64,000 bases of DNA, taken from assembly GCF_002214505.1 (NCBI RefSeq), contig NZ_CP015103.1, positions 186,001-250,000 on the forward strand, written 5' to 3'. The translations under genes were made by a program, and so were the position numbers. The notes beneath the pieces were generated by a model. It was not told where the DNA came from. It ran no database searches and saw only the letters and a program-made list of their open reading frames with translations. This document shows positions 5,756-51,024 of the stretch, in pieces (position 1 is the first letter of the stretch; every line of letters starts with the position of its first letter). This DNA comes from Thermococcus siculi (GTDB lineage Archaea > Methanobacteriota_B > Thermococci > Thermococcales > Thermococcaceae).

Positions 5756-5778
5756 CCACAGGGAAAACCCAGAAACGC

Positions 5779-8786: not shown

Positions 8787-8872
8787 GAAGGCACCACCTC
8801 AAGCAATCCGAGAATAATGGGGGGATTTTATAAACCTATCCACCCGCGAGTACATAAATATGCACTCTGTGT

Positions 8873-9280: not shown

Positions 9281-9339
9281 TCCGCCACCCAAACACGGGT
9301 GGAATTTTTGGCGTTAAAACCCTTTCTGCGCTTCCCCTT

Positions 9340-9425: not shown

Positions 9426-9489
9426 CAAAGTATTTAACTAATTAAAACACTAACTATTTCAGCGGCTTGCCGTACTGGGTGGTGCAGGG

Positions 9490-9681: not shown

Positions 9682-9748
9682 GCCGCTCGAATCAACGTTC
9701 AAATCAAAGTTATATAATAGTCCAATTCGACTGAGGGGGTTGGGGCAG

Positions 9749-11002
9749 ATGGTATTTAAACTCTTGGAACAGGCAGGAATTAAACTCGATCTGGACGAAG
9801 AGCCCAGGAGGGCGCAGATTGAAGGATTCCCCGACGGAGACCTCGAGGATCTGATAAGGATCGTTATAGTCGGCGTTGGCGGTTCTGGAAACAACACCAT
9901 AACCAGGCTCTTCGAGCTTGGCGTTCAGGGTGCCGAGCTTATAGCCATGAACACCGATGCTCAGCACCTCGCCAGAACCAAGGCGCACAAGAAGCTCCTT
10001 CTCGGAAAGGAGATAACCCAGGGCAAGGGTTCGGGCGGAAACCCTGAGGTAGGCTACCGCGCCGCCGAGGCGAGCGCCCACGAGATCGCCGAGACCATAG
10101 GTGACGCCGATCTGGTTTTCATAACCGCTGGTATGGGCAACGGTACTGGTACCGGCGCTGCCCCGGTTGTAGCCAAAGTGATAAAGGAGCGCGCCAGGCA
10201 CAACGGCCGCTTTAGGGAGCCGCTCGTCGTAAGCGTCGTTACCTACCCGTTCAAGAACGAGGGCAAGATAAGGATTGAGAAGGCCAAGGCGGGCATAAAG
10301 GCCCTCATGTACTACTCGGACACCGTTATCATAATCGAGAACGACAAGCTCCTCAAGCTCGTTCCCAAGCTTCCGATCAACGCTGCCTTCCGCTTCGCCG
10401 ATGAAATCATCGCAAGGATGGTCAAGGGCATCACCGAGACCATAAAGCTTCCGTCGATGGTCAACATCGACTTCGCCGACGTCTACAGCGTCATGCACAA
10501 CGGAGGAGCCGCTTTGATAGGAATAGGCGAGAGCGACTCCAGCAACAGGGCGGTCGACGCCGTCAAGAACGCCCTCGAGAACAAGATGCTCGAGGTGGAG
10601 TACGGGAGCGGCGACAGGGCACTGGTTCACTTCACCGTCGGGCCTGACGTCAGCCTCGGTGAGATAAACGACGCCATGAACATCGTCTACGAGAAGCTCG
10701 GTGAGAAGAGCGAGATCAAGTGGGGCGCAAGGATCGACGAGGACATGGGTAAGGTCGTCCGCGCCATGGTCATCATGACCGGCGTTAAATCCCCGCACAT
10801 ACTCGGCGGGGAGCACGCCCTCCAGCTCGGCTCCTCGATGAAGGACAACATAATAACCACCGAGCCGGTCAAGCCATTCAAATCGAAGGACGGTGACTTC
10901 GACAGGATATTCAACACGATATCTGGCAGACCAGAGAAGAAGGGCAAGGAGCTTCCACCCTACGCGAAGAGGGTTCTGGACGAGTTCCTCGACATAGCGT
11001 GA
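9749..11002 (+). CDS. ftsZ: Cell division protein FtsZ
   Basis: A 417-residue tubulin-like GTPase that polymerises at the division site. Glycine loop GVGGSGNNT (about 42-50), tubulin signature GMGNGTGTG (128-136) and T7 loop NIDFAD (239-244) with both catalytic aspartates are intact, so the protein should be an active polymerising GTPase. The ATG at 9749 is chosen over the TTG at 9740; it gives the archaeal N-terminus [13 protein letters not shown]-terminal tail of about 30 residues ends in [16 protein letters not shown], a plausible partner-binding peptide. It sits between an RHH regulator and a parA-RHH pair. Confidence 0.96.
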
Positions 11003-35902: not shown

Positions 35903-36499
35903 ATGGAGTCAAATAAGAACATGGGGAGATTACTCGACATCCTGGGCAACGAGACGCGGAGGCGGATACTCATCCTGCTCACGAAAAGGCCGTACTTCGT
36001 GAGCGAGCTGAGCCAGGAGCTTGGCGTGGGTCAGAAGGCGGTTCTTGAGCATCTCAGGATACTCGAGAGCGCGGGACTCATAGAGGGAAGGACCGAGAAG
36101 ATACCCCGCGGCAGGCCCAGGAAGTATTACACTATAAAGCGCGGCTTCCGCCTGGAGGTTCTCCTGACGCCATACACGTTCGGCACCGAGATGTACGAGC
36201 CTAAAGCTCCCCGGAAGACGGCAGAATACAACCAGGCCAGAACGCTCATAAAGTCCACCGAACCGGCCGAGGCCAAGATAGACGAGCTTCTAACCTTTCT
36301 GGCGGAGATACAGGACAGGATTGAGGAGATACTCCAGACTAAGAGGGAACTCGAGGAGGTTCGCCTCCTGACCGAGACGTACATAGAGAACCTGTTCAGG
36401 AGAATAGCCCAGGAGAACGAGCGCGAGTTCGAGCGCCTGCTCAAGGAGTTTGCCCCGAGACTTCCCAAGAAAATACTTGAGGATTTAGAGGGCTTTTAG
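35903..36499 (+). CDS. phr: Heat-shock transcriptional regulator Phr
   Basis: A 198-residue homologue of Pyrococcus Phr, the repressor of hsp20, an AAA+ ATPase gene and its own gene at normal temperature. The N-terminal winged helix shows LLDILGNETRRRILILLTKR, FVSELSQELGVGQKAVLEHL and the beta-wing GRTEKIPRGRPRKYY. The C-terminal 80 residues are coiled-coil helices for dimerisation. It is closely similar to the remembered P. furiosus sequence over the first 80 residues. The ATG follows GGGGGTGAGG. Confidence 0.92.
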   Translation: MESNKNMGRLLDILGNETRRRILILLTKRPYFVSELSQELGVGQKAVLEHLRILESAGLIEGRTEKIPRGRPRKYYTIKRGFRLEVLLTPYTFGTEMYEPKAPRKTAEYNQARTLIKSTEPAEAKIDELLTFLAEIQDRIEEILQTKRELEEVRLLTETYIENLFRRIAQENEREFERLLKEFAPRLPKKILEDLEGF

Positions 36500-36849: not shown

Positions 36850-37269
36850 ATGCTCAGGGAGATAATCCGCTGCAGGGGCCACGAAAACGTCAGGGCGACC
36901 CACAAATCGACGCTGGAGTTCACGAAGGAGGACTATTTGACGCCCAGAGGAGACTGCATACTCTGCATCGAAGCCGACAAGGGAATAAACGATCTGAGCG
37001 GGGAGTTCAAGGCAGCGCTTAAGGCCGGAAAAAAGCTCTTAATCCGCATCAGGGTTGGAGACCTCATCGACGAGGTTCTCGCGGAGGGTAGCCCGCAGCT
37101 CATCCTCGACCATGACCACTCGATGGTGATAAGGAAGAGCACCTACGTGGACGGAAGAACGCTCGCAGTGAGGGCGAACAAGGCTGCCAGAGACATCGAT
37201 AGGAGGATAGTCGAGCTGTTGAGGGATCCTGAAACTAGGGCCGAGATTGAACTTATAATTCTTGACTGA
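36850..37269 (+). CDS. DUF371 family protein
   Basis: A 139-residue archaeal DUF371 protein, recognisable from [21 protein letters not shown], the [11 protein letters not shown] strand and [21 protein letters not shown]. The fold is a beta-barrel-like domain of unknown function. A TATA box CTTATAAA at 36821-36828 puts the start of transcription at the ATG itself (36850), so the mRNA is probably leaderless; this argues against the GTG at 36841. The last 17 bases overlap the convergent GH130 gene. Confidence 0.82.
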
Positions 37270-38194
37270 GCTTACCCCTGCCCTCTTTTAGGATCCTCCC
37301 GTGCGCTAGCCCCACGTACCTGTCAGCCCCGCCGTAGTAGAGGTAGAGTTTCCCTCCGTGCTCCACCATCGCCTCGGCGAAGACGACGTTGTTCACCCAT
37401 CCCCTTAGTTCCCACTCGAACTCAGGCTCAAACAGCGGTCTTTCCGTCCTCCAGAGGAGCTTCCTTGGGTCGTTGCTATCAAACAATGTCGCCTGAACAG
37501 TGTAAACGAGGTCCTTGCCCCTCCAAAATTCCTCATTGTGTATGAGGAGTATCCCATCATCCAGCATCAGGGGCGGCGGCCCCGGCTCGACGAGATAGCC
37601 CCTCGGCGTTAGAACCGGCTCTGCCTCGTATTCCCAGTGGAGCAGGTCCTTTGAATAGGCCAGCCATATGTTGGAATCGCCGAAGTACATGATGTAGCGC
37701 CCTTTGAATGGGCCTGACTTCATTCTCTCGGCAAGGATTGCCCCACTTTTCGTCCAATTGAGCTTTCCGTTCTTCTCGAAGGGGAACTCCTCGAAAACGG
37801 GTCCGTACTTCTTCCAGCTCAAGAGGTTCTTTGATGTGGCCATGCAGAGCCTCGCAGTTTTTCCGTCGTAGCCCGTGTAGGTCATGTAATAGGTCTTCCC
37901 CACCTTCACTATCCTCGGGTCCTCCACCCCGACCTTCTCCCAGCTGTACTCCGGCTCCACAACCGGCTCCGGGTGTCTGATGAAGTTCACACCATCCGTG
38001 CTGAGTGCGAGGCCCATTCTCCCTGTTGTTCTTTCCCCTTTCGCCTCGGCCCGGTAGAGCATGACGAATGTTCCCCTGTGCATGACCACCGCCGGGTTGT
38101 AGGTGTTCTTCGAGTCGAAGCCCCCATCGGAGGGCGAAAGAACCGGGTTGGGGAACTTTTTGAAGTGGAACTCAAAGGGGTTCAACGTCCACAC
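37253..38194 (-). CDS. Glycoside hydrolase family 130 protein (mannoside phosphorylase-like)
   Basis: A 313-residue five-bladed beta-propeller of the GH130 type. YNPAVVMHRGTFVMLYRAE, VGVEDPRIVKVGKTYYMTYTG and a SDIW-like DSNIWLAYSKDLLHW are typical blade motifs; the Asp in the VEDPRI segment is the usual proton donor. Known members phosphorolyse beta-1,4- or beta-1,2-mannosides or hydrolyse them. The start is GTG 38194 or, with a better placed GGGGGTG, TTG 38185. It is the last gene of the leftward isomerase-hydrolase operon, overlapping the preceding gene by about 14-23 bases. Confidence 0.85.
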   Translation of the reverse strand: MWTLNPFEFHFKKFPNPVLSPSDGGFDSKNTYNPAVVMHRGTFVMLYRAEAKGERTTGRMGLALSTDGVNFIRHPEPVVEPEYSWEKVGVEDPRIVKVGKTYYMTYTGYDGKTARLCMATSKNLLSWKKYGPVFEEFPFEKNGKLNWTKSGAILAERMKSGPFKGRYIMYFGDSNIWLAYSKDLLHWEYEAEPVLTPRGYLVEPGPPPLMLDDGILLIHNEEFWRGKDLVYTVQATLFDSNDPRKLLWRTERPLFEPEFEWELRGWVNNVVFAEAMVEHGGKLYLYYGGADRYVGLAHGRILKEGRGKLSQEL

Positions 38195-40025
38195 CCCCGT
38201 TGCTCCGTATCAGGTATCTCCTGTCCCTGAAGAGAACTCCCCTGATGATGAACCTCGCGTCCTCTGCCGGCTTAACGGTCAGCTCGTCCCCTGCCTCCAT
38301 GCCGAGCGACGCGGTCACGAGCGCAAAGACGCTCGCGGCGCTCCAAGCTTGCGGTGAGTTGGCCCTCGGGACCGGGACCAGCTCATTCAGCCCACTGTAT
38401 AGCTCAGGCAGCTCCTTTTCCGGCATGAGCTTCGCTGCTTTGAAAACCCTGTCGGCCAGCTCCTTCGCGAGGTCAGTCCTTCCAATCCTCGCAAGGCCGA
38501 GCGCTATCAGCGCGTTGTCGTGGGGCCACACACTCCCCCTGTGGTAGCTGAAGGGGTTGTATGCTCTCTCCTTCGAGCCAAGGGTCCTTATCCCATAGCT
38601 GGAGAGCATGTCCGGCTGGAAAAGCCTCTCCGCGATGTCCTCTTCATGCTCCGCTATCCCGGTGAGGAGAAGGTGCCCCATGTTGGAGGAGACGACGCGG
38701 AGAGGCTCGCCATCCCCGTCCAGGGCCAGAGCGTAGTATCCATCGATCCAGAAGTCGCGGTTGAATCGTTTTTTCAGCCTCTCGGCCTCCCTGAGCAGTA
38801 TCTCGGAGTCGAGTTCGGTCATTTCAAGCTCCCCGGCAAGTCTTAGCGCCCAGTATGCGTAGCCCTGCACCTCCACGAGCGCTATCGGGGGTTTTGCGGG
38901 GTTCCCGTCCTCGTCCACTATGGCGTCGCGCGAGTCCTTCCACCCCTTGTTTCCCAGTATCCCGGGAACGTAGGTTATGTATCCATTTCCCCGGAGCTTT
39001 TCCAGTATCCACTCGACGGCCCTGGTCAGGTTGGACCTTATCCCCTCCAGCAGGCCCATGTCTCCTGTCCAGTGGAGGTACTCGCCGGCCAGGGCCACGT
39101 AGAGGGGCGTCGCATCGACGGTTCCGTAGTACGGTCCGAATGGAATCTTCCCAGACTGCGCCAGCTCCCCGAGGCGAAACTCGTGGGGAATCTTCCCCGG
39201 TTCCTCCTCGCTTCTCGGGTCGTTCTTTCTGCCCTGTATCGCCCCGAAGAGCCTGAGTGTGCCGGCCGCGTATTCCGGGTAGTAGGGCAGGAGGAACAGG
39301 GATGTTATTATCGCGTCCCTCCCGAAGGGACAGGCAAAGTAGGGAATCCCCGCAAGGGGAACGGGACCGTAGACGGTGTGGAGCGTTAGGGCATGGAGGT
39401 TCTCCACGGCTCTTTCGAAAACGTCGTCGAGAGCAATGGAACCGGTGAATACGGGGTTCTTAAGGGGGAGTTTCCTATCACCGAGCAGATCGAGGGCTTC
39501 GTCCTTAACTTCCGGGATGAAGCGGACGTAGAGTGTTATTTTGGAGAACGGGGCAAGTTTCAGCCGGGCCTTCAGTGAGGCGTCCTCTCTGCTCATGTTG
39601 GTCTCCACTCTAAGTCTCCTGTCACCCCTTGAGTGTGCGCCTTCCCTCAGCGGTGTCCCCTTCTCGCCCTTCAGCCCCATGAACCCCCTGACCTGGAAGA
39701 TATCCTCCAGCGGGGCCTCGTAGGTGTACTCGAGTTTGATTTCCACCTCGTCGTTCAAAGCGTTGTATGCCGAAATCCTGTCCTCGTAAAAGCCATCGAG
39801 CTTTCTCCTCCTGACCAGAACCGCCTTTTCGGGTATTGAGAAGTGTGAGACGGCCTCTCTGAACGTTGCAGAGGTCCCCAGGAATTCCGGTTCGGGTTCA
39901 ACTCTGAGCCTGACGTTTCTGACGAAGCGCGTGTCAAGGAAGTAAAAGCCGTCGTAGTGGCTTCCCATGTTCCCCATCTCGTCCGTGAGTACGACGGCGC
40001 CGTTGCCGGCCAAAATGCTCCTCAT
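38172..40025 (-). CDS. Glycogen-debranching-like (alpha/alpha)6 glycosidase
   Basis: About 617 residues. The N-terminal domain (about 1-190) is the beta-sandwich of the glycogen debranching N-terminal family (GNMGSHYDGFYFLDTRFVRNV). The rest is an (alpha/alpha)6 barrel with PYFACPFGRDAIITSLFLLPYY, GTVDATPLYVALAGEYLHWTG and SYHRGSVWPHDNALIALGL, the last being the usual general-base region. Relatives include amylo-alpha-1,6-glucosidases and hydrolases of small glucosides such as glucosylglycerate. Given its operon, a soluble oligosaccharide or glycoside is a more likely substrate than glycogen (inference). ATG 40025 follows GGGGTG; it overlaps the isomerase stop region. Confidence 0.82.
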   Translation of the reverse strand: MRSILAGNGAVVLTDEMGNMGSHYDGFYFLDTRFVRNVRLRVEPEPEFLGTSATFREAVSHFSIPEKAVLVRRRKLDGFYEDRISAYNALNDEVEIKLEYTYEAPLEDIFQVRGFMGLKGEKGTPLREGAHSRGDRRLRVETNMSREDASLKARLKLAPFSKITLYVRFIPEVKDEALDLLGDRKLPLKNPVFTGSIALDDVFERAVENLHALTLHTVYGPVPLAGIPYFACPFGRDAIITSLFLLPYYPEYAAGTLRLFGAIQGRKNDPRSEEEPGKIPHEFRLGELAQSGKIPFGPYYGTVDATPLYVALAGEYLHWTGDMGLLEGIRSNLTRAVEWILEKLRGNGYITYVPGILGNKGWKDSRDAIVDEDGNPAKPPIALVEVQGYAYWALRLAGELEMTELDSEILLREAERLKKRFNRDFWIDGYYALALDGDGEPLRVVSSNMGHLLLTGIAEHEEDIAERLFQPDMLSSYGIRTLGSKERAYNPFSYHRGSVWPHDNALIALGLARIGRTDLAKELADRVFKAAKLMPEKELPELYSGLNELVPVPRANSPQAWSAASVFALVTASLGMEAGDELTVKPAEDARFIIRGVLFRDRRYLIRSNGGVDVEPL

Positions 40026-40027
40026 GC

Positions 40028-41506
40028 TCACACCCCGAGGAACGATTTCACCTCGTTCCCGTCCGCCAAATTGACGGCCCGGACTCCCCAGAGCCTCGCG
40101 GTGAAGCGAAGCTCCTCGATATAGTCCCCGGGGACCAGTGAGAGGTGGTTCGCCCCCATGGCGGAGATGAAGGTTTCTTTGTCGAGCGGGTTCTTAATAG
40201 CCGTGTGCGGCCACTGTTTCCCCCATTTAAGCTTTGACTCCATCTCCTCCGTTATCTCGACGCCCTCCGCTTGGAAGTAGAGGAGGTAGTACTCTCCCGC
40301 GCGGCGTATGAGCCTCGCCACTGTGAACTTCGCCGGCGGGGTTCTGTACGTCAGTGCCCCTCCACTCGCCCCCTGGCACTGTCCCTGGATCATGGTTGCC
40401 CTGAGGTTCTCCTCGGGGTTCTCGCTCAGCCTCGCGTAGTAGAGCGATGAAGCCCCGCAGTTCGCTATCATGACGATTTCGTCGTCCACGTACTTTATGT
40501 CCCCGAAGAGCGGCGGCTTCCCGCTCAGGTAGAAGAGGAGCGCCGAGCTTATCGTCCCCTTGACGTCGCCCTCGCACGTTGCTGGGATGACGTCCTTCTC
40601 CCCCTCGGCATCGAGGTTGAAGGGAAAGAGCGCTGGAATGAGGCAGGCGGTTGTCCCATAAATCTCGCTCAGCTCGGGCTGGCACTTTATGGAAACTGCC
40701 GAAACGCCCCTATGCTCATTAAAACTTTCCTTGGCCGCCAGATAGAGTGCAATCTGTCTCCTCAAAGCCTCCGGCGTGAGCATCTTGTCGTCGAACTTAA
40801 CGCTGGTCTTCTCTAGAAGCCAGTCGTAGAACTCTTCCACACGGACGCGGAGCCTCTCGTCCGAGAGTAGCTTCTTCGCCTCCCTCACCAGAACGTACTG
40901 GTCGAGCATTACGAAGTCGCCGACGATTCTCTTAAGCCTCGGAAGGTCGTCCATGAGGTGCTCCATTCCCAGGGTGTAGGGTGCGCCCCAGAGGAGGAGG
41001 GACTTCTTGGAGAGCCTGTCCACCGCCTCAACAGCCCTAGCCCAGGCCTTGACCTTCTCCACATCGCCCTTGAGCCTCACGTGGTTGAGCGCGTATTCGT
41101 TCACCGAGCTCTCCCAGAGCGAGGCCCCGACCGAGGTGATGCATGTCGCCCCTGCCCAGGCCGGATCGTCGTCGGCGTAGAGGAGGAGGGGCTTTTTCGC
41201 CTCCCGGATCATTGCGGTAACTAGGTTGCTCTCCGTCCAGTGCCAGAGGCCGGTTATAACCCCGCTCACGCCCCCTCCAGCAGCAAGCCTGCCGGCCTTT
41301 ACGGCCTCTTCCATGGAGGCTATCCCAAAGTTCTTCCCCTCTTTCACAGCCCCGTACTTCCTCAGCTCGTCGTTGATATCAAGGACTTCAAATCCCGCTT
41401 TTCTAAGCTCTTCCACGAGTTCTGAATGCTTTTCGAGAAGGGCCATTTCGCGTTCTCCCGAGAGGGCAGTTGGTCGGGGGTCTGTGAAAGTCACGACGGC
41501 TATCAT
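40028..41506 (-). CDS. L-fucose/L-arabinose isomerase-like protein
   Basis: A 492-residue protein of the FucI/AraA superfamily. The C-terminal catalytic half contains SIKCQPELSEIYGTTACLIPALF, ATCEGDVKGTISSALLFYLSGKP (metal-binding Glu/Asp) and the carboxyl end HTAIKNPLDKETF with SAMGANHLSLVPGD. It should isomerise an aldose or ketose; the exact sugar is unknown. First gene of the leftward operon: TATA TTATATA (minus strand, 41540-41546) and the palindrome at 41560-41576 control it. ATG 41506 with GGTG upstream is favoured over TTG 41515. Confidence 0.85.
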   Translation of the reverse strand: MIAVVTFTDPRPTALSGEREMALLEKHSELVEELRKAGFEVLDINDELRKYGAVKEGKNFGIASMEEAVKAGRLAAGGGVSGVITGLWHWTESNLVTAMIREAKKPLLLYADDDPAWAGATCITSVGASLWESSVNEYALNHVRLKGDVEKVKAWARAVEAVDRLSKKSLLLWGAPYTLGMEHLMDDLPRLKRIVGDFVMLDQYVLVREAKKLLSDERLRVRVEEFYDWLLEKTSVKFDDKMLTPEALRRQIALYLAAKESFNEHRGVSAVSIKCQPELSEIYGTTACLIPALFPFNLDAEGEKDVIPATCEGDVKGTISSALLFYLSGKPPLFGDIKYVDDEIVMIANCGASSLYYARLSENPEENLRATMIQGQCQGASGGALTYRTPPAKFTVARLIRRAGEYYLLYFQAEGVEITEEMESKLKWGKQWPHTAIKNPLDKETFISAMGANHLSLVPGDYIEELRFTARLWGVRAVNLADGNEVKSFLGV

Positions 41507-41559
41507 CGGCAACACCTGGGAGAAATCGGCAAAAAGGCATATATAACCGTTGTGTTATA

Positions 41560-41576
41560 AACCACTCTCAATGGTT
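41560..41576. promoter_or_regulatory. Palindromic operator 1 (AACCAYT-N3-ARTGGTT)
   Basis: AACCACT-CTC-AATGGTT, between the isomerase operon (minus) and the PfkB kinase gene (plus). It lies 13 bases upstream of the minus-strand TATA box (41540-41546) but directly touches the plus-strand TATA (TTATAAA, 41555-41561). The same motif recurs at 43688 and 45801. The TrmB-family protein at 49988 is the probable binder. Confidence 0.75.
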
Positions 41577-41596
41577 GCATTTTGGTGATGGCGATG

Positions 41597-42544
41597 ATGG
41601 TCTCAATCGGCGAAGTCCTCATAGACTTCATAGCCGTCGAAGAGGGGAATTTGAAGAACGTTAAGGCCTTTGAGAAGCACCCCGGGGGTGCCCCCGCCAA
41701 CGTTGCGGTTGGCCTGTCGAGGCTCGGGGTTGATAGCGCGCTGGTAAGCAAGGTCGGAGATGACCCTTTTGGTGACTTCCTTCTCGAAAGGCTCCACGAT
41801 GAGGGCGTGAAGACCTTCGTCGCCCGCGACCCCGAGAGGCACACGGGGATAGTCTTCGTCCAGCTTATAGGGGCCAGACCCGAGTTCATCCTCTACGACG
41901 GGGTTGCGTATTTCAACATGGGCGGAGAGGATTTCCCCGACGATGTCCTTGAAAGTGCAGAACTTGTCCACTTTGGGAGCGTTCTCTTCGCCAGGGAGCC
42001 TTCGCGTTCGGCCCTCTTTGAAGCCCTCAGAGATCTCAAGGGAAAGGTGCCGCTCAGCTACGACGTCAACATAAGGCCCGACCTCTGGCGCGGGAGGGAG
42101 GACGAAATGCTGGGGGATATAGAGAGGGCGCTGAAACTGGCGGACATCGTCAAGCTCGGGGACGGTGAGCTGGCCTATCTGGAGGAGAACGGGATAAATC
42201 TTGAGGATTTCGATTTCAGACTGGTGGCTATCACGAAAGGAGCCGGGGGAAGCGAGCTTCTGAGCTGTGGATCCAGGGTTCACGTGCCCGCCTATGACGT
42301 TGAGCCTCTCGACACGACCGGTGCTGGGGATGCATTCATGGCCGCTTTGCTGGCGGGGCTGCACTATTCAAACCTTCTCGGAAATGGGGTTCTCAGGGAG
42401 GATGACCTGGAAAGGCTCGGCCGCTTCGCAAACCTCATCGCGGCGCTCTCGACGACTCAGAGAGGGGCCTGGAGCGTCCCAAAAATAGAAAACGTGGCTT
42501 TAATGAGGGAGTTTCGGGAGCTTCACCAGCGCTCAAGGAGATAG
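41597..42544 (+). CDS. PfkB family carbohydrate kinase (fructokinase-like)
   Basis: About 315 residues of ribokinase fold. GEVLIDF and HPGGAPANVAVGLSRLG form the sugar site; YDVNIRPDLWRG and the ATP/anion-hole motif DTTGAGDAFMAALLAGL are complete. The closest character is fructokinase or 2-keto-3-deoxygluconate kinase-like. Several in-frame ATGs cluster at 41588-41597; the GGTGAT at 41584 best suits 41594 or 41597. It is divergent from the sugar isomerase-like gene, sharing operator 1, so it may phosphorylate the isomerase product (inference). It overlaps the convergent glycosyltransferase gene by 22 bases. Confidence 0.88.
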   Translation: MVSIGEVLIDFIAVEEGNLKNVKAFEKHPGGAPANVAVGLSRLGVDSALVSKVGDDPFGDFLLERLHDEGVKTFVARDPERHTGIVFVQLIGARPEFILYDGVAYFNMGGEDFPDDVLESAELVHFGSVLFAREPSRSALFEALRDLKGKVPLSYDVNIRPDLWRGREDEMLGDIERALKLADIVKLGDGELAYLEENGINLEDFDFRLVAITKGAGGSELLSCGSRVHVPAYDVEPLDTTGAGDAFMAALLAGLHYSNLLGNGVLREDDLERLGRFANLIAALSTTQRGAWSVPKIENVALMREFRELHQRSRR

Positions 42545-43665
42545 TCCTTCTCCTCAAGGAAGACCTTTGCCCTTTCCTTTATCAGCTTTTCCGCCTCCAG
42601 GGTGCTCATGTCCATCGTCCTCTTTACGAAGTCAGCCGTCTTCGCGAAGTAGAGCGGGACGAGGGGTTCAGCCTCCTCGAGGATACCGTCCCTGTAGGCA
42701 ACCGCCCCATCGTAGAGGACGTGGCTCCAGAGCCTGTCATCGAACTCGAAGGTCTTGAGAACCTCTTTCACACCCTCGAAGGTCGCCGGCGCTAAAGCTC
42801 TTCTTAACACGGGTTCGTAGTTGGAGAACAGCTCCTTGGCCTTTATCTCGAGGAGTTCAAGGGTTACCTTCACTGGCTCTGGCTCCCCTTTCCTGAACTC
42901 GCCGAAGACGGGAACGGGTTCTATCGCCCTAACATCCTTCCAGGCGTCCTCGTACTGCTTCATGAGCATGAAGAGAGTGCCCACGACCTGGTTGAACATC
43001 GGGCCGAGGGAAGCCGCCGGATCCTTGGGGTCGTGTATCTTCATCCCAAGTGCGGTCTGGATGATCCTGAATCCCCTCGCTATCGCGGTCGTGGTGAGGA
43101 AGATATCGACGCCAAAGCGGGCCACGTGGGTCTTCCAGACCTCCTCATCTTCGAGGTAGACCTCCATGAGCTTCCTGCTTACCCCGAAGTCTCCCCCGAT
43201 GGGCTGTCTGACGTTCTTTCCATAGAGCGAGGCGGTCATCGGGTAGGCTATGTTGTTGGTTATCGTCCCGTCCCACTTGTGCCTTATGTAGAGCGGTGCC
43301 ACGAAGTGGTAACCTTCCTCGATTGGCCCCGCGAGAAGGCGTATCCAGTCGGGCCTTATGCTCCTCAGGTCGCTGTCCACGAACACTATGGCATCGGCTT
43401 CCCTCTCAACGGCGAACTCCATAAGTTCCTTCATGGCACTGCCCTTTCCGGGTATCGGCCATTTGTAGACGAAGCTGTGAACCTCGACCCCATCTGGAAC
43501 GGGAGTATTGAGAACCGCCTCCCGGGTCCCATCGGTGCTGCCCCCGTCGGCGTTTACCACAATTCCCCCGCCGAAATGCCTTTTGAGTCCCTCGGCAGCC
43601 TGCCGAACCACGAAAGAGATTGTCTCGGCGTTGTTGTAGCTCGGAATTCCGACGATGACCCTCAT
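42523..43665 (-). CDS. GT-A glycosyltransferase, glucosylglycerate synthase-like (GT81-like)
   Basis: About 380 residues. The N-terminal GT-A domain has VGIPSYNNAETISFVVRQAA, VVNADGGSTDGT, the charged GKGSAMKELMEFA loop, metal motif FVDSDLRSI, and RQPIGGDFGVSR, a signature of glucosyl-3-phosphoglycerate and glucosylglycerate synthases. The C-terminal 130 residues are helical. The likely activity is transfer of a hexosyl group from NDP-sugar to glycerate or phosphoglycerate, making a compatible solute; mannosylglycerate-type products are possible. ATG 43665 has GGTGA five bases upstream. Its TATA (TTTAAAT, minus strand) lies inside operator 2. Confidence 0.82.
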   Translation of the reverse strand: MRVIVGIPSYNNAETISFVVRQAAEGLKRHFGGGIVVNADGGSTDGTREAVLNTPVPDGVEVHSFVYKWPIPGKGSAMKELMEFAVEREADAIVFVDSDLRSIRPDWIRLLAGPIEEGYHFVAPLYIRHKWDGTITNNIAYPMTASLYGKNVRQPIGGDFGVSRKLMEVYLEDEEVWKTHVARFGVDIFLTTTAIARGFRIIQTALGMKIHDPKDPAASLGPMFNQVVGTLFMLMKQYEDAWKDVRAIEPVPVFGEFRKGEPEPVKVTLELLEIKAKELFSNYEPVLRRALAPATFEGVKEVLKTFEFDDRLWSHVLYDGAVAYRDGILEEAEPLVPLYFAKTADFVKRTMDMSTLEAEKLIKERAKVFLEEKDYLLERW

Positions 43666-43687
43666 CTCCTTCACCCTCTTAAGTTAC

Positions 43688-43704
43688 AACCATTTAAAGT
43701 GGTT
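43688..43704. promoter_or_regulatory. Palindromic operator 2 (AACCAYT-N3-ARTGGTT)
   Basis: AACCATT-TAA-AGTGGTT. It stands 14 bases upstream of the plus-strand TATA box TTATATA (43719-43725) of the dehydrogenase pair, the position of an activator site, and at the same time covers the minus-strand TATA-like TTTAAAT of the glycosyltransferase gene, the position of a repressor site. Confidence 0.78.
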
Positions 43705-43757
43705 TATTTTGAAAAGGGTTATATACCTTTCGACGCTACAATCAGTGAGGGATTCCC

Positions 43758-44765
43758 ATGGAACTGCGGGTCGGTGTGGTAGGATGTGGGAACATATTCA
43801 ACCTCGCCCACAAAAACGCCCTGAGGGCTGTGGAAGGCATCAGAGTCGCCGCGTGCATGGACATCGATGGGGAGAGGGCGAAGGCCGGGGCGAGAGAGTT
43901 TGGCGCTGAACCCTTCACAGACCTTGACGAGTTTCTGAGCCTTGACCTTGACGTTGTGGAGATTCTGACCCCAACGTACACCCACGCGGAGCTGGCCATC
44001 AAGGCCCTCAAGGCAGGAAAGCACGTTATAGTCGAGAAGCCCATTGCCCTCACCGTCGAGGAAGGGGAGAAGATGATAAAGACCGCCGAGAGGCAAGGCC
44101 TCCATCTCCTCGTCGGCCACGTGAGGCGCTTCGATAGGAGATGGATCCAGATGAAAGAGATCATAAAGAAGCGCAACATTCTCCCCATGCACATCAGGAA
44201 GAGCGAGGTTCAGAACCTACCGTTTCCAAAGGATTACTGGTACTGGGATGAAGGAAAGAGCGGCGGCGTCGCCCTCGACCTCGGCGTCCACGTGACGGAC
44301 TTCCTCCGCTGGTTCTTTGAGAGCGAACCGGTGAGCGTTTACGCTGTCGGAAAGGCCATAAAGGAAGAGGCCCGGGCCAACGGAACCTTCGACCACTTCG
44401 TCATGATGATACGGTTCGAGGGCGGAAGGACGGGGATAGCCGAGGTCAGCTGGGCGTACCCCTATCCGTCACGCTACGGCGTCTTCTACCACCACGTTGA
44501 CATAATAGGAAAGAACGGCCGCATACGATACACTCCGCTCGACACCCCTGTCGTCGGTGTCGCAAAGGCCAACTTCGAGATGCCCCGCTTTTCCCCGCTG
44601 CTTTCGACGTTTCCGGATGCCTTCGAGAGGGAGCTGAGGCATTTCTTTGCCGTCATAAAGGGTAAGGAAGAGCCGGCTGTGACCGCAGAGGATGCCCTCG
44701 TAGCTCTCAGGATTGCAGAGAGGGCCAAGGAGAGCGCCCGGACGGGGGAGGTGGTGGAGGTATGA
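43758..44765 (+). CDS. Gfo/Idh/MocA family oxidoreductase (first of two)
   Basis: A 335-residue NAD(P)-dependent dehydrogenase. The Rossmann motif VGVVGCGNIFNLAHKNAL is at the N-terminus, the conserved EKPIAL lysine motif is near residue 95, and the C-terminal domain has SGGVALDLGVHVTDFLRWFF with the catalytic-region histidine. Family members oxidise sugars, inositols or sugar derivatives. GAGGG lies before the ATG. It overlaps the next, paralogous dehydrogenase gene by ATGA, so both are made together; they could act on two steps or form hetero-oligomers. Confidence 0.88.
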   Translation: MELRVGVVGCGNIFNLAHKNALRAVEGIRVAACMDIDGERAKAGAREFGAEPFTDLDEFLSLDLDVVEILTPTYTHAELAIKALKAGKHVIVEKPIALTVEEGEKMIKTAERQGLHLLVGHVRRFDRRWIQMKEIIKKRNILPMHIRKSEVQNLPFPKDYWYWDEGKSGGVALDLGVHVTDFLRWFFESEPVSVYAVGKAIKEEARANGTFDHFVMMIRFEGGRTGIAEVSWAYPYPSRYGVFYHHVDIIGKNGRIRYTPLDTPVVGVAKANFEMPRFSPLLSTFPDAFERELRHFFAVIKGKEEPAVTAEDALVALRIAERAKESARTGEVVEV

Positions 44766-45775
44766 GGAAGCTCAACTTCGGGATAATCAGCTACGCTCAC
44801 CCGCATGCACTCCGCTACGCCTCCGTCATAGCTGGAGGGAAGCATACAAGACTTGTTGCTGTATCCGGCGACGGCTCTAACTTCGACGTGGCTATGGCAG
44901 AGGCGAAGAAGTACGGAGCACGGTTCTACAGGAACTACGAGGAGCTTCTGAAGGACGGGAACGTGGAGGCAGTCTACATTGCGATTGAGACATACAGGCA
45001 CAAAGAGGTCGCCATAAGAGCTGCAGAGGAGGGTAAGCACATTCTCCTCGAGAAACCCATCGCACTGAGCCTCAGGGACGCGGACGAGGTGATAAAGGCC
45101 GCGAAGAGGGCAGGAGTGAAGCTGATGCTCCCCTTTAACCCCCGCTTTACTGAACCCCTCGGGAAGGCCAAGGAGATGCTTGACAACGGTGAGATTGGCC
45201 TTCTGGAATACGTCCACGCAATCTCGGAGAACGTTAAGCCACCGATATTCCTCCAGGGGCTGGACATGAGCTGGTTTCTGGACGAGAGAAAGTCCGGCGG
45301 CGGTGGCTTCATGGACACGGCACCTCACGGAATAGACTCTCTCCTGTGGCTGACTGGGGACGTGCCGAAGAGGGTCTACGCGGACATAGGTGCCAAGATA
45401 TACGGCTTCCCTGTTGACGACATCGGCACGGCTGTTCTGGAGTTCAAGAACGGTGTAGTAGCGGTTCTCACTGCCGGCTGGGGCAATCCAAAGGGCTACT
45501 CCTACGGGCTGGAGATAAAGTACCACCTCATCGGGAGCGAGGGCTTCCTCGATGTGAGGACTGCCTATCCTGACTTCACGGTGTACCAGGACAAGGCCGA
45601 GAAGGTCTACTGGGACAGACCAGACGTGAGGGGAATCGTGGAGTCCTTTGCGCGGGCGGTGCTCGATGATGGAGAAGTCCCCATAAGCGGAGAGGATGCG
45701 AAGAAAAACTTGGCCATAGTCCTGGCGGCATACAAGGCGTCGGAGGAGAGGAGGGCTGTGAAACTGGATCTTTGA
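44762..45775 (+). CDS. Gfo/Idh/MocA family oxidoreductase (second of two)
   Basis: A 337-residue paralogue of the preceding protein. Its N-terminus NFGIISYAHPHALRYASVI lacks the usual GxGxxG glycine fingerprint, replaced by SYAHPHA, so cofactor binding may be altered. The EKPIALSLRDADEVI motif and KSGGGGFMDTAPHGIDSLLWLTG catalytic region are intact. The closest relatives by eye are the myo-inositol dehydrogenase-like group. It ends the two-gene operon; a T-rich stretch (45779-45795) after the stop may terminate it. Confidence 0.87.
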   Translation: MRKLNFGIISYAHPHALRYASVIAGGKHTRLVAVSGDGSNFDVAMAEAKKYGARFYRNYEELLKDGNVEAVYIAIETYRHKEVAIRAAEEGKHILLEKPIALSLRDADEVIKAAKRAGVKLMLPFNPRFTEPLGKAKEMLDNGEIGLLEYVHAISENVKPPIFLQGLDMSWFLDERKSGGGGFMDTAPHGIDSLLWLTGDVPKRVYADIGAKIYGFPVDDIGTAVLEFKNGVVAVLTAGWGNPKGYSYGLEIKYHLIGSEGFLDVRTAYPDFTVYQDKAEKVYWDRPDVRGIVESFARAVLDDGEVPISGEDAKKNLAIVLAAYKASEERRAVKLDL

Positions 45776-45800
45776 CCAAACTTTTACTTTTTTGTAATAC

Positions 45801-45817
45801 AACCACTTTTAGTGGTT
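45801..45817. promoter_or_regulatory. Palindromic operator 3 (AACCAYT-N3-ARTGGTT)
   Basis: AACCACT-TTT-AGTGGTT, with perfect 7-base arms. The TATA box TTATATA of the transporter operon is at 45832-45838, again exactly 14 bases downstream, identical in spacing to operator 2. The fixed upstream spacing suggests activation by a bound regulator. Confidence 0.8.
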
Positions 45818-45886
45818 CTAAAACACAAGTCTTATATACAACATTCGCTTAAACTTAATGAACAACTGCCTACCCGGTGATGCACG

Positions 45887-47170
45887 ATGAGACAGCTGTT
45901 TGGAGTTTTACTTGCGGCTCTTGTAGTGGCTTCAGTGATAGCCAGCGGTTGCATAAGCGGTGGTGGCGAGAAGACTACCGTTACCTTCCTTTCTACCCAG
46001 CTGAACCCGCCGGAGGAGAGGGCTTTCGTTAAGGACGAACTCTTGAAGCCATTCTCCGAGGAGTACAACTTGGAGGTAAACTTCGTTCCCATACCATACA
46101 CGGACCTCATCACGAGGCTTGAAGGCGAGGAGCAGACCGGAAAGGTGACGATCGACGTCATCGGCGACCTCCACGGCGGCATGGATTACATGGCCGCCAA
46201 GGGATGGCTCATGGATCTCAACGACATGCCCCAGCTGAAGGACAGGACGTTCATCACAACCTTTGACAGGTATTCCCACATGCACGGAATCAAGGCCTAC
46301 GTGCCCTGGATGAGCGCCACCTACGTCATGGTTGTCAACAAGGATGCCTTCAAGTACCTCCCGGAGGGCCTCACCGAGGAGGACGTTATGACAGGAAGCG
46401 GAAAGTGGACCTACGATGCCCTCCTCCAGTGGGCCAAGAACCTCAAGGAGGCTACCGGTCAGCCGCAGCTCGGCTTCCCGGCCGGTCCGAAGGGACTCTG
46501 GCACAGGTTCCTCCACGGTTACATCTACCCGAGCTACACTGGCTACCAGGCCAAGAAGTTCAACAGCCCAGAGGCCATCGAGATGTGGAACTACATGAAG
46601 GAACTCTGGCCCTATGTTAACCCGTCCAGCACTGTGTGGGACTCGATGTCCGATCCGCTCCTCAAGGGGGAGGTCATGATTGCCTGGGACCACACGGCGA
46701 GGATTAAGAACGCTATAGAAACCAAGCCGGATCAGTTCGTTGTGGTTCCCGTTCCGAGGGGGCCGAAGGGCAGGGGATTCATAGTCGTCCTTGCCGGTCT
46801 TGCTATTCCGAAGGGTGCTCCCCACAAGGACGAGGCGTGGAAGCTCATAGACTACCTCACCAGGCCCGAGACCCAGGTCAAGGTTCTCGAGAAGACCGGT
46901 TTCTTCCCGACTGTCGAAGAGGCCAGCGGAAAGCTTCCGGAGGGACCCCTCAAGATACTCGCCGAGGGAGTCCGGGCACAGGCAAGCACCCAGGATGCGC
47001 TCGTGGTGATGATACCCAACCTCGGAGAGAAGGGCGGAGAATTCACCAGCCTTTACAGGGAGGCCTTTGAGAGGATAGTCCTCAAGGGTGAGGACCCGCA
47101 GAAGGTTCTCGACGAACTCGGAGAGCAGATGGACGCCATCTTCCAGGAGCTTGGTGTCGAGGAACCGTGA
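45887..47170 (+). CDS. Sugar ABC transporter substrate-binding lipoprotein
   Basis: A 427-residue MalE-like binding protein. Signal peptide with lipobox IASGC anchors it outside the membrane. The two-lobed fold is indicated by TIDVIGDLHGGMDYMAAKGWL, YVPWMSATYVMVVNKDAF (hinge strand) and YLTRPETQVKVLEKTGFFP near the end. Family 1-type proteins bind oligosaccharides or glycosides. First gene of the operon binding protein, two permeases, ATPase, regulator, glycerate kinase. A promoter (TTATATA, 45832-45838) with operator 3 precedes it, and the next gene follows in 10 bases. Confidence 0.9.
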   Translation: MRQLFGVLLAALVVASVIASGCISGGGEKTTVTFLSTQLNPPEERAFVKDELLKPFSEEYNLEVNFVPIPYTDLITRLEGEEQTGKVTIDVIGDLHGGMDYMAAKGWLMDLNDMPQLKDRTFITTFDRYSHMHGIKAYVPWMSATYVMVVNKDAFKYLPEGLTEEDVMTGSGKWTYDALLQWAKNLKEATGQPQLGFPAGPKGLWHRFLHGYIYPSYTGYQAKKFNSPEAIEMWNYMKELWPYVNPSSTVWDSMSDPLLKGEVMIAWDHTARIKNAIETKPDQFVVVPVPRGPKGRGFIVVLAGLAIPKGAPHKDEAWKLIDYLTRPETQVKVLEKTGFFPTVEEASGKLPEGPLKILAEGVRAQASTQDALVVMIPNLGEKGGEFTSLYREAFERIVLKGEDPQKVLDELGEQMDAIFQELGVEEP

Positions 47171-47180
47171 GGGGTAAGCC

Positions 47181-48035
47181 ATGGAGAGGCGCTCCCTCAT
47201 CCCCTACCTTTTACTTTTGCCGGCCATTATATACCTGCTTGGTTTTATAGGCTACCCCTTAATTCAGGCGTTTTATCTCGCGTTTACCAAGGACGGCGCC
47301 CTTTCTCTGGACACCGTTAGGAGGGCACTCAGCGATTACTACTTCTGGGATGCCCTGAGGAACACCCTACTGTTTGCGGCGGTTATCGTACCCATACAGC
47401 TAGGTTTGGCCGTTGTATTGGCGTTGTTTATGAATCGCACGTTTAAGGGGCGTGATCTCGGTATCTATGCCCTTATAATCCCCCTGACCATAAGCGATGT
47501 GGCGGCGGGGTTGATATGGTTCTCCCTGCTCTCCCCCTATGGTTTTGTTAACAAGCTCTTGATGAACCTGGGGATAACCAACACCCCGATATACTTCTTC
47601 GGTTACCAGTTCAGGACGAGGGAGTTCTTCGTCATCGTGCTGGCCGAGATATGGAGGGCAACCTCCATAGTATTTGTGATAATCCTCGCTGGCCTTCAGA
47701 TGATAAGCAGGGAATACCTCGAGGCGGCGGAGGTGTTTGGAGCCGGTTACTGGACGAGGCTCAGGCACATAGTCCTCCCGATGCTGAAGCCCAGCATTCA
47801 GAGCGCCCTCATAATCAGAACACTCTTCGCCATGCAGATATTCGGTATAGTCCTGATACTCGCAGGCAGGGACATACCTGTTCTCGCTGCTGAGGGATAC
47901 CGTCAGATGGTGGACCTGAAGGATCCAGGAGTGGCCTCCATATACGCCCTCATAATAGCCGGTATCTCGCTTATACTGGCTGCCCTCTACGTGAAGTTCC
48001 TCCGGGCTGAGTACCTGGAGGTGAGCAGGCAATGA
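47181..48035 (+). CDS. Sugar ABC transporter permease (MalF-like)
   Basis: A 284-residue permease with six membrane segments. The cytoplasmic EAA loop, EYLEAAEVFGAGYWTRLRHIVLPML, matches the MalF/UgpA consensus that docks to the ATPase. It is the inner-membrane partner of the MalG-like protein encoded next, whose start overlaps its stop by 4 bases. Uptake of the ligand captured by the upstream lipoprotein is the expected role. Confidence 0.9.
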   Translation: MERRSLIPYLLLLPAIIYLLGFIGYPLIQAFYLAFTKDGALSLDTVRRALSDYYFWDALRNTLLFAAVIVPIQLGLAVVLALFMNRTFKGRDLGIYALIIPLTISDVAAGLIWFSLLSPYGFVNKLLMNLGITNTPIYFFGYQFRTREFFVIVLAEIWRATSIVFVIILAGLQMISREYLEAAEVFGAGYWTRLRHIVLPMLKPSIQSALIIRTLFAMQIFGIVLILAGRDIPVLAAEGYRQMVDLKDPGVASIYALIIAGISLILAALYVKFLRAEYLEVSRQ

Positions 48036-48865
48036 ACGACGAGACAAAGTACCTCCTGAAGAAGATAGCCAGCTACGCCGTGGTTTTCACTCTGGTACTG
48101 TGGATAATCCTCCCCCTCTTCGTCACCTTCCTCTATGGATTCACTACTGCCGAAGACTACTACAACCCGGATAAGATAATTCCCACTACGTTCACCACTC
48201 AGTACATCGAGACGATACTCTTCACACTCGGCGCATGGGATGGGATACGAAACAGTATAATCGTTGCAACTATGACGATAATAATAAGCTTCATCCTCGG
48301 CATTCCAGCCGGATACGCCATGGCCCGTTACATCTTCCCTGGAAAGGACACAATAAAGCTCTCGATAGTTGGCCTCAGAATGTTCCCTGTAATAGTCATG
48401 GCAATTCCTCTCGTCGTCCTCTACATCAACCTTCACCTCATAGACACTCTCCTGGGAGTTGCCCTCGCTCACACCGCCATGGCACTGCCCTTCGTTATAC
48501 TGATAACGTCCAGCATATTCGCCGGGGTTTCAAAGGAGCTAGAGGAGGCGGCCCTGGTCTTCGGCCTCACCCGCCTGGGGGCCTTCAGGAAGATAACCCT
48601 ACCGCTCACACTGCCGGGACTCGCGGCCGCGGCAATGTTCACCTTCGTCATGAGCTGGAACGAGGTCTTCATGGCCTCAATTTTAACGCTCAACAACAGG
48701 ACTCTGCCGGCTCTGATACTCTCGATAGTTGCCGGCGCCGGCGGTGGGGCCGCCCCGGACTACTACAAGTTCGCGGCGGCCTTCATAATGACGCTCCCAG
48801 CCATGGTGTTCGTGTTCTTCACCAGGAAGTATCTGGTGACCATGTGGGGTATAACGCTCAAGTGA
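48032..48865 (+). CDS. Sugar ABC transporter permease (MalG-like)
   Basis: A 277-residue permease with six membrane segments and EAA loop KELEEAALVFGLTRLGAFRKI. The segment TTAEDYYNPDKIIPTTFTTQY between the first two helices is the usual MalG extracytoplasmic loop. Translation is coupled to the MalF-like gene (ATGA overlap), and the ATPase gene follows 9 bases later. Confidence 0.9.
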   Translation: MNDETKYLLKKIASYAVVFTLVLWIILPLFVTFLYGFTTAEDYYNPDKIIPTTFTTQYIETILFTLGAWDGIRNSIIVATMTIIISFILGIPAGYAMARYIFPGKDTIKLSIVGLRMFPVIVMAIPLVVLYINLHLIDTLLGVALAHTAMALPFVILITSSIFAGVSKELEEAALVFGLTRLGAFRKITLPLTLPGLAAAAMFTFVMSWNEVFMASILTLNNRTLPALILSIVAGAGGGAAPDYYKFAAAFIMTLPAMVFVFFTRKYLVTMWGITLK

Positions 48866-48874
48866 GGTGTTGGT

Positions 48875-49978
48875 ATGGTTGAGGTCAAGCTTGAGAACAT
48901 CACCAAGAGGTTTGGAAACTTTGAGGCGGTTAAGGGACTGAACCTGACGATCAAGGACGGTGAATTCCTCGTTCTCCTCGGGCCGAGCGGCTGCGGAAAG
49001 ACGACCACTCTGAGGATGATTTCGGGCCTTGAGACTCCAACGGAGGGCAGGATATACTTTGGGGACAGGGACGTTACGTATCTCCCCCCCAAGGACAGAA
49101 ACATCTCCATGGTCTTCCAGAGCTACGCGGTGTGGCCCCATATGAAGGTCTACGACAACATAGCCTTCCCCCTCAAGGTGAAGAAGTACCCCGAGAACGA
49201 GATAAGGCAGCGCGTTAAGTGGGCGGCGGAGCTCCTTCAAATAGAGGAACTCCTCGACCGCTATCCGGGTCAGCTCTCAGGCGGGCAGAGACAGCGTGTT
49301 GCCGTTGCCAGAGCCATAGTGGTTGAACCCGACGTTCTTTTGATGGACGAGCCGCTGAGCAATCTGGATGCCAAACTCAGGGTTGCGATGCGCGCGGAGA
49401 TAAAGAAGCTCCAGACGAAACTCGGCGTCACGACGATCTACGTCACCCACGACCAGGTGGAGGCAATGACGATGGGCGACAGGATAGCTGTCATGAACAG
49501 GGGACGGCTCCTCCAAGTTGGCCCTCCGACTGAGGTCTACCTCAAGCCCAACTCCCTCTTCGTTGCAACTTTCATAGGCGCCCCCGAGATGAACGTAGTT
49601 GCAGCGAGCGTCGTCGAGGGTGAGGGCCTATGGCTCGAGGGAAGCGGCTTCAAATTGAAGCTCCCGGACGACTTCAGGGAGCTTCTTGAGGGTTACATAG
49701 GAAAGGACGTCCTCCTAGGCATAAGGCCCGAGCACATGACGGTCAAGGGCGTCTCAACTCTGGAACACGTGACGAGGACGGCCGAACTGGAGGGAGTGGT
49801 TGACTTCATCGAGGCCCTTGGAACCGACACCATAGTCCACGCAAAGGTGGGCGACCACATAATCAAGATAAAGCTTCCCGGCCACATACCGCTCCCCGTC
49901 GGAGAAAAGATTAAAATAGGGATAGACCTTGACAATATCCACATCTTCGACAAGCAGACGGAAAAAGCGATAATCTGA
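48875..49978 (+). CDS. Sugar ABC transporter ATP-binding protein (MalK-like)
   Basis: A 367-residue MalK-type ATPase. Walker A GPSGCGKTTT, Q-loop FQSYAVWPHM, signature LSGGQRQRVAVARAIV, Walker B LLMDEPLSNLD and switch YVTHD are all intact. The C-terminal 120 residues form the MOP-like regulatory domain (LLGIRPEHMTV). A full set of binding protein, two permeases and ATPase is therefore present and should be a working importer. Confidence 0.93.
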   Translation: MVEVKLENITKRFGNFEAVKGLNLTIKDGEFLVLLGPSGCGKTTTLRMISGLETPTEGRIYFGDRDVTYLPPKDRNISMVFQSYAVWPHMKVYDNIAFPLKVKKYPENEIRQRVKWAAELLQIEELLDRYPGQLSGGQRQRVAVARAIVVEPDVLLMDEPLSNLDAKLRVAMRAEIKKLQTKLGVTTIYVTHDQVEAMTMGDRIAVMNRGRLLQVGPPTEVYLKPNSLFVATFIGAPEMNVVAASVVEGEGLWLEGSGFKLKLPDDFRELLEGYIGKDVLLGIRPEHMTVKGVSTLEHVTRTAELEGVVDFIEALGTDTIVHAKVGDHIIKIKLPGHIPLPVGEKIKIGIDLDNIHIFDKQTEKAII

Positions 49979-49987
49979 GGTCTGCCT

Positions 49988-51004
49988 ATGGAGGAGAAAG
50001 AGATAAAATCTCTCCTGAGGGAATTCGGCCTCAATGAGTACGAGGTTAGGGCTTACCTTACCCTAATAAAGAACGGGCCGTTGACTGCAGGGGAGCTGGC
50101 GGCCCTCTCGGAGGTTCCCCAGCCCAGGATATACGACGTTATCCGAACCCTCATGGCCAAGGGTTTCGTTACCACCAGTCAGGGACGTCCCAAGCAGGTG
50201 ATACCACTAAACCCTGAGAGTGTAATGGAGGCCATGAAAAGGCGATACAATGAAAAGATAGAGAGTCTCAAAACTGCCTTGGAGAGGCTTTATACTCCCC
50301 ACGGCGAAGTTGGCAGTGTTACCGTCGTGAAGAGCCGCATAACGCTTGAGGAGTACGTGAAAAGGGCCGTGAACAACGCAAACTTCCACCTGAGCATGGC
50401 GTTGCCTCTGGAGTTCCTCAAAAACCTCGAGGATGCCCTTAAGAGAAAGAAAGAAGCCGGCGTTCACATAAACCTCTTCACCTATGGTTCTGGGGAAGTT
50501 CCACCCGTGGCCAGTGAGATTCGGATGAGGGAGGTCCCCGACCCAATAATAGTGATCCAGGACAGGGAAATGGGCGTGTACCTACCCTATGAGGCCTTGA
50601 CTGGGGGAAGTTCTCTCCACGGTTACGGTCTGATAATTCGGGACAACAACCTCCTCTTCATGCTCGACCGCTACTTCTACCATGCCCTTTGGCCCACGGG
50701 TAAGGTCGTCCATCGCGAGAAGAGGGAGCTGAAGCTTCCGAAGGAGTACATCCACATAAGGGAGTTGGTGGCGGACGTCAGGGAGTTCGACCTCCTGGGT
50801 TCACGGGTGGAGGTAACCGGTAGGTTCGTCCGTTCTGGAGAGCCTGTCCACATAACGGGAAAAATCGTTGACTTCTACGAGGACGAGCACAAGGTCGTCT
50901 CGAACATCACGGTCGAGGCTGAAAACGGGGAGCGCTACGTCGTGGGTGGCTGGAACGCCTCCCTTGAGGACGTGGAAGCAGAGAAAGTTGTCATCTACCC
51001 GTAA
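49988..51004 (+). CDS. TrmB-family sugar-sensing transcriptional regulator
   Basis: A 338-residue full-length TrmB-like protein. The N-terminal winged helix has LREFGLNEYEVRAYLTLIKNG and ELAALSEVPQPRIYDVIRTL; a coiled coil follows (about 75-100), then a sugar-binding domain with PYEALTGGSSLHGYGLIIRD and a C-terminal beta domain (VTGRFVRSGEPVHITGKIVD). TrmB/TrmBL proteins repress or activate sugar genes depending on site position and release DNA on sugar binding. Being in the transporter operon, it is the natural candidate to bind the AACCAYT-N3-ARTGGTT palindromes. The gene starts 9 bases after the MalK-like gene. Confidence 0.9.
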   Translation: MEEKEIKSLLREFGLNEYEVRAYLTLIKNGPLTAGELAALSEVPQPRIYDVIRTLMAKGFVTTSQGRPKQVIPLNPESVMEAMKRRYNEKIESLKTALERLYTPHGEVGSVTVVKSRITLEEYVKRAVNNANFHLSMALPLEFLKNLEDALKRKKEAGVHINLFTYGSGEVPPVASEIRMREVPDPIIVIQDREMGVYLPYEALTGGSSLHGYGLIIRDNNLLFMLDRYFYHALWPTGKVVHREKRELKLPKEYIHIRELVADVREFDLLGSRVEVTGRFVRSGEPVHITGKIVDFYEDEHKVVSNITVEAENGERYVVGGWNASLEDVEAEKVVIYP

Positions 51005-51024
51005 ATCCCTCTGGAGATGTGGTT

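Follow-up and report, generated by a model that had tools for sequence, protein, structure and literature searches.

What reads the 17-bp palindrome that recurs at the promoters of one sugar cluster in Thermococcus siculi, and which way does it turn the genes on either side? The cluster lies in a 64,000-nucleotide window (contig NZ_CP015103.1, positions 186,001 to 250,000) of this 2,029,167-bp Thermococcaceae genome, and the palindrome, AACCAYTNNNARTGGTT, has three exact matches in the whole genome, all within the cluster. Copy 1 (AACCACTCTCAATGGTT, 41560-41576) stands between a FucI-like isomerase operon on the minus strand and pfkB on the plus strand, copy 2 (AACCATTTAAAGTGGTT, 43688-43704) between a glycosyltransferase gene (minus) and a Gfo/Idh/MocA dehydrogenase operon (plus), and copy 3 (AACCACTTTTAGTGGTT, 45801-45817) upstream of an operon encoding an ABC transporter, the TrmB-family regulator TrmBL5 and a glycerate kinase. 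An earlier note on the window had reported these three copies, and all match without a mismatch; it had named scattered copies as the contrary outcome of a genome-wide scan, and that scan finds no exact match outside the cluster. The reversed pattern, used as the background control, has no exact match in the genome, and the three-copy pattern is confirmed to exceed chance by far. As a whole, the palindrome is very probably best explained as the operator of the cluster's own regulator, TrmBL5.

The sole copy with one mismatch outside the cluster lies within a reading frame of 360 amino acids, and with up to two mismatches the genome holds only 10 remaining places where the reversed control has 26. 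The comparison was extended to 94 Thermococcaceae genomes, of which 46 carry a trmBL5 ortholog (at least 54% identity; other TrmB-like proteins reach at most 38%) and 48 do not. Exact matches number 50, spread over 30 of the 94, and a place-by-place comparison puts every one of them in promoters of this same cluster. Off-cluster places with one mismatch show no excess, numbering about 53 against 59 for the reversed control in the genomes with trmBL5 and 23 against 41 in those without. A regulon reaching beyond the cluster is rejected on these counts, near-matches elsewhere being at background and the single one here lying inside a reading frame. A literature search for the palindrome sequence gave no relevant result.

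The operator is conserved in about 45 genomes, and was aligned in 86 distinct orthologous promoters (39 dehydrogenase, 36 ABC at the binding-protein gene (SBP) and 11 isomerase (FucI)). Operator 2 has 0-1 mismatches in all 39 dehydrogenase promoters; operator 3 has 0-1 in 30/36 ABC promoters and 2-3 in 6/36; operator 1 has 0-1 in 7/11 isomerase promoters, and a symmetric variant, AACAACTTTTGGTTGTT, is present in 4. The arms hold 1.92 (dehydrogenase), 1.83 (ABC) and 1.69 (isomerase) bits per column and the flanks 0.47-0.86, values that include a selection effect, the best-matching 17-mer being taken per promoter. The TATA-proximal arm, AGTGGTT, is almost invariant, the distal arm more variable. 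In AACAACTTTTGGTTGTT, found in the FucI-PfkB intergenic region of four loci (L074, L075, L076 and L082), both arms are changed symmetrically and the spacing to TATA is unchanged; as judged from its sequence alone, it is a natural specificity variant.

Directly on the TATA-distal side of each palindrome is an aaTAC/aaTGC consensus block (41577-41581, 43683-43687 and 45796-45800), conserved in all three promoter classes and in the same place in loci L073-L118. As this block has no symmetric counterpart, the operator is oriented. At one locus (L112, in genome G076), transposase-like insertions (about 5300-6250 and 7820-10270) split the glycosyltransferase-dehydrogenase promoter, the site staying with the glycosyltransferase, and dehydrogenase 2.

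The distance from each copy to its TATA box is nearly constant. Operator 1 lies 13 bp from ATATATAA / TTATATAT (41539-41546), the TATA box of the isomerase promoter and, in one reading, of the pfkB promoter as well; operator 2 lies 14 bp from GGTTATATACC (43719-43725), common to the dehydrogenase and glycosyltransferase promoters and flanked by AAA and TTT, so that TATA stands between two TFB recognition elements (BRE-TATA-BRE); and operator 3 lies 14 bp from the plus-strand TATA box of the ABC operon (45832-45838). Read directly from the sequence, the gaps take the values given in the earlier note for the isomerase, dehydrogenase and ABC operons. Across the 86 promoters the gap varies little (standard deviation 0.5-0.6 bp); the start codon stands at a more variable distance from TATA (6.5 bp at ABC, SBP). 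Centre to centre, operator and TATA are 24-28 bp apart, and 25-26 bp at both divergent pairs, where one symmetric TATA is shared.

The glycosyltransferase and the dehydrogenases have a single near-symmetric element between them, GAAAAGGGTTATATACCTTTCG; in 39/39 orthologous promoters its TATA is preceded by AAA and followed by TTT. At the isomerase-PfkB pair, TTT (the reverse BRE) is present at the far side of TATA in 11/11 FucI promoters and the forward AAA in 0/11; at the ABC promoter, which faces no divergent gene, the TTT side is present in 16/36 and the forward AAA in 14/36. BRE-TATA-BRE elements of Pyrococcus furiosus give bidirectional transcription from starts about 49 bp apart (PMC6640164). 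Placing the TATA centre near -26.5, from the TATA position of -30 to -23 in the same study, predicts a glycosyltransferase start at about 43695 and a PfkB start at about 41569, each midway along an operator (operator 2, with its centre at 43696, and operator 1, with its centre at 41568, respectively). A shared bidirectional promoter is suggested at both pairs, its sequence features being complete at glycosyltransferase/dehydrogenase and present on the TTT side only at isomerase/pfkB, with the start sites predicted.

The putative reader of these sites, TrmBL5 (49988-51004, plus strand), is the sole DNA-binding protein encoded in the cluster. It comprises an N-terminal TrmB winged helix-turn-helix domain (HTH; Pfam TrmB, PF01978, 7.6e-22, above cut-off) and a C-terminal sugar-binding domain (Regulator_TrmB, PF11495, 3.8e-46), gene domains throughout being assigned via Pfam and NCBIfam. 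Its Tyr-Asp recognition pair, Y49 D50, is invariant in the ortholog alignment, and Tyr-Asp appears in the published list of DNA-binding residues of the TrmB family (PMC4158304). In the surrounding region, QPR-YDV, the 14 aligned orthologs differ only at I48 (I/V); it reads VPQPRIYDV, with Q45-P46 invariant, against IPHTRVYDV in TrmBL1. Also invariant in 14 orthologs are Gly321 and Glu327, which align with Gly320 and Glu326 of the TrmB sugar site. The trmBL5 ortholog is present in all 30 motif-bearing genomes and the motif in 0/48 genomes without it (Fisher p ~3e-13, the genomes being related and not independent). The earlier note had pointed to the cluster's TrmB-like protein as the obvious regulator; conservation of the site in about 45 genomes, its retention with the gene and the 17-bp geometry of TrmB and TrmBL1 sites all argue for that prediction.

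The regulator shares 62% identity with its T. barophilus ortholog TERMP_01835, with gene order as in TERMP_01835-01840. Both published primers for reverse transcription quantitative PCR of TERMP_01835 match perfectly inside the ortholog reading frame of locus L100 (genome G086), and the regulator is therefore the protein named TrmBL5, the role of which was called unclear (PMC10667668). A TrmB-type site, TACTN6AGATA, had been proposed in silico at the TERMP_01835 promoter (T. barophilus 1,624,822-836; PMC10667668). It overlaps the TATA box, and the conserved operator, AACCACTTTTAGTTGTT, which would take its place, lies 18 bp further upstream at 1,624,854-870; the stretch that spans both (1,624,822-870) is L100 8723-8771. 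Assigning to TrmBL5 a specific operator and a regulon of one cluster would give a candidate role to this Thermococcales protein.

From these sequence features we infer that TrmBL5 binds the site, whether it activates or represses at a given promoter, and that an effector exists and of what kind. Bound as a dimer, TrmBL5 would recognise both AACCAYT half-sites of the 17-bp two-fold element. At the ABC operon its place would be immediately upstream of BRE/TATA, where it would act as an activator or a recruiter of basal factors, and autoregulation is expected, trmBL5 being part of the operon driven from copy 3. At the divergent pairs the dimer would stand upstream of the isomerase and dehydrogenase promoters, yet over the region in which transcription of pfkB and the glycosyltransferase gene is predicted to begin, such that one filled site would favour one direction and block the other. 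With the site filled, the dehydrogenase, isomerase and ABC operons would go up, and the glycosyltransferase and PfkB down; a sugar or glycoside in the C-terminal domain would set occupancy.

Our estimate gives this dual mode, in which one bound site activates one direction and represses the other, about an even chance. A further proposal is more tentative, falling somewhat short of even: that an operator 25-26 bp from a symmetric, shared BRE-TATA-BRE is the direction switch of one bidirectional promoter, turning it from the glycosyltransferase (synthesis) or kinase side to the dehydrogenase or isomerase (catabolic) side. The geometry of such a switch is repeated at two divergent pairs and is conserved across the family. 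TrmBL1 activates from sites upstream of BRE/TATA and represses from downstream ones, and it has been inferred to act as both repressor and activator at a single divergent region, PF1538/PF1539 (PMC4706686). The earlier note had taken a fixed upstream spacing as known for activation by TrmBL1. The link between position and sign is documented, but the fixed spacing was overstated, upstream TrmBL1 sites reaching 156 bp upstream of the promoter (PMC4706686), and reading the copies as activating sites missed that they cover the predicted starts of the divergent glycosyltransferase and PfkB kinase genes. Repression is as likely as activation given that position.

Several observations weigh against this account. 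A second TATA-like sequence for pfkB (41555-41560) adjoins the operator and leaves the exact PfkB start uncertain. No clear sugar effect on T. barophilus TERMP_01835 was reported, that of maltose being only slight (PMC10667668). One genome, G056, has trmBL5 but no site, its glycosyltransferase, dehydrogenase and ABC promoters being likewise gone. The motif sits inside the cluster, so that loss of the cluster removes it trivially, and co-occurrence alone does not single out TrmBL5. Lastly, sugar mostly causes euryarchaeal TrmB proteins to leave their sites (PMC4158304); activation of an operon for sugar uptake would fit this poorly, except with an effector that promotes binding.

Release by sugar is the basis of the alternative that survives best, although we consider it rather unlikely: a purely repressing operator, at which TrmBL5 bound 13-14 bp from TATA would obstruct TFB/TBP or RNA polymerase whichever way transcription runs, keeping everything down until sugar releases it. 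Induction by release is the usual logic of euryarchaeal TrmB and suits sugar uptake (PMC4158304), as for classical TrmB at the trehalose/maltose operon, and the glycosyltransferase and pfkB sides are in a repressing position. On the ABC, dehydrogenase and isomerase sides, however, BRE and TATA are left free, in the position documented for TrmBL1 activation, and the weak forward BREs at ABC (AAA 14/36) and isomerase (0/11) suit dependence on an activator.

Improbable, by our assessment, is a DNA-binding protein from outside the cluster that reads the palindrome while TrmBL5 acts elsewhere. The co-occurrence is compatible with an unlinked factor and the genome holds 14 TrmB-like HTH matches, but off-cluster sites do not rise above background in the 94 genomes, and the reader would thus be a dedicated regulator of the cluster. 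TrmBL5, moreover, travels with the cluster even in G078, in which the ABC genes are lost and the glycosyltransferase, the dehydrogenases, the regulator and the glycosyltransferase-dehydrogenase site are kept. In G080 (L117, 14278-16116), where internal deletions have taken out most of the cluster, trmBL5 survives only in truncated form and no site is left. The neighbouring ArsR-type HTH protein (35903-36499, 0.75 kb beyond the GH130 gene) is rejected as the regulator because it is near-universal, occurring in 89/94 genomes irrespective of the motif. TrmBL1 is a poor candidate as its own operator, the Thermococcales glycolytic motif (TGM, TATCAC-N5-GTGATA), is absent from the cluster. Nor is the cluster's regulator itself TrmBL1: it scores 150 bits against a curated TrmBL1 equivalog cut-off of 650, and a separate TrmBL1-like gene is present in the genome (G000:C1:633098). 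A search of genome contigs for relatives of the regulator outside Thermococcaceae returned only Thermococcus/Thermococcaceae members and one haloarchaeal TrmB at 29%.

That the palindrome acts as RNA (a terminator or attenuator hairpin) or as a small repeated mobile element is hardly credible, for although copy 3 lies about 25 nt past the dehydrogenase stop codon, after a T tract, copies 1 and 2 separate divergent starts and have no transcript ending upstream of them, the spacing to TATA is constant and no copies occur at other ends or loci in the 94 genomes.

Under the control of operator 1 on the minus strand would be the isomerase operon, composed of the FucI-C-domain isomerase-like protein (40028-41515), which is its first gene, a debranching-type glycoside hydrolase with GDE_N_bis and GDE_C domains (38172-40031) and a GH130 phosphorylase-like protein (37253-38194). 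Divergent from it is the fructokinase-like PfkB sugar kinase (41582-42544, plus strand; start possibly 41588 or later). The glycosyltransferase, of GpgS or mannosylglycerate-synthase (MGS) type (42523-43674, minus strand; predicted start site inside operator 2), is divergent from the Gfo/Idh/MocA dehydrogenases 1 (43758-44765) and 2 (44762-45775), both on the plus strand. Between the dehydrogenase stop and operator 3 is a conserved T-rich tract, CTTTTACTTTTTTGT (45775-45800), which resembles an archaeal terminator. The ABC sugar transporter (45887-49978, plus strand) consists of a binding protein, two permeases and an ATPase, and trmBL5 is followed by the last gene of the operon, a glycerate 2-kinase-like protein (DUF4147/MOFRL; 51019-52353, plus strand).

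A FucI-type isomerase, a fructokinase-like PfkB, a glycosidase, a glycerate kinase and a GpgS/MGS-like glycosyltransferase could together handle mannosides or glyceryl-glycosides, and the same gene set could have synthesis by the glycosyltransferase wired opposite to breakdown. The minimal set kept in other genera comprises only the glycosyltransferase, two dehydrogenases, the ABC transporter and TrmBL5. The glycosidase is closely related to a solved structure labelled an archaeal debranching enzyme (7vma), but its operon with the isomerase and GH130 genes is missing in many relatives, and its natural substrate may not necessarily be glycogen. Given this minimal set and the 7vma-like glycosidase, gene content does not fix the substrate of the cluster. 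Searches of solved structures with the isomerase and the binding protein gave no match.

The locus is of a known kind, a local regulon of the TrmB family, with a new putative operator and regulon. It offers a compact natural test case for how the direction of archaeal promoters can be controlled, in which one palindrome, one symmetric TATA and two divergent genes occur together, twice, and its roughly 45 natural variants are ready-made mutants for studies of specificity against the TGM. The earlier note had set the motif apart from the TGM, and the window indeed holds no TGM closer than 3 mismatches; the rest of the genome has 19 (0-1 mismatch). The classical TrmB site, TACTNNNAGTA, likewise has no match in the window, and both are rejected as explanations of the control of the cluster, from which they are absent.

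TrmB and TrmBL1 sites have two-fold geometry (PMC4158304), and the new motif, like the TGM, is a 17-bp two-fold element with the same centre spacing: TATCACY-N3-RGTGATA and AACCAYT-N3-ARTGGTT share A2, C4, A5 and Y6 (the CAY core). Shared with TrmBL1 are also placement upstream or downstream of BRE/TATA and, in the predicted reader, the TrmB-family Tyr49/Asp50. The outer bases differ (AACCAYT against TATCACY), and the TGM, read by TrmBL1/Tgr in Pyrococcus and Thermococcus, is spread over the genome, whereas the new motif keeps to a single cluster. With TrmB of P. furiosus and T. litoralis (TACT-N3-AGTA) it has in common the core ACT-N3-AGT and a local regulator encoded with its own ABC sugar operon; the TrmB site, however, overlaps BRE/TATA and represses, whereas the new site, 17 bp long, does not cover TATA on the ABC side. 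Activation or repression according to operator position relative to BRE/TATA, the dual mode proposed here for TrmBL5, is known from VNG1451C, the TrmB of Halobacterium salinarum, and from SurR, although these read other motifs (TACT-N7-8-GAGTA and GTTn3AAC) and control genome-wide regulons. The new motif is best seen as a putative sister specificity within the TrmB operator class.

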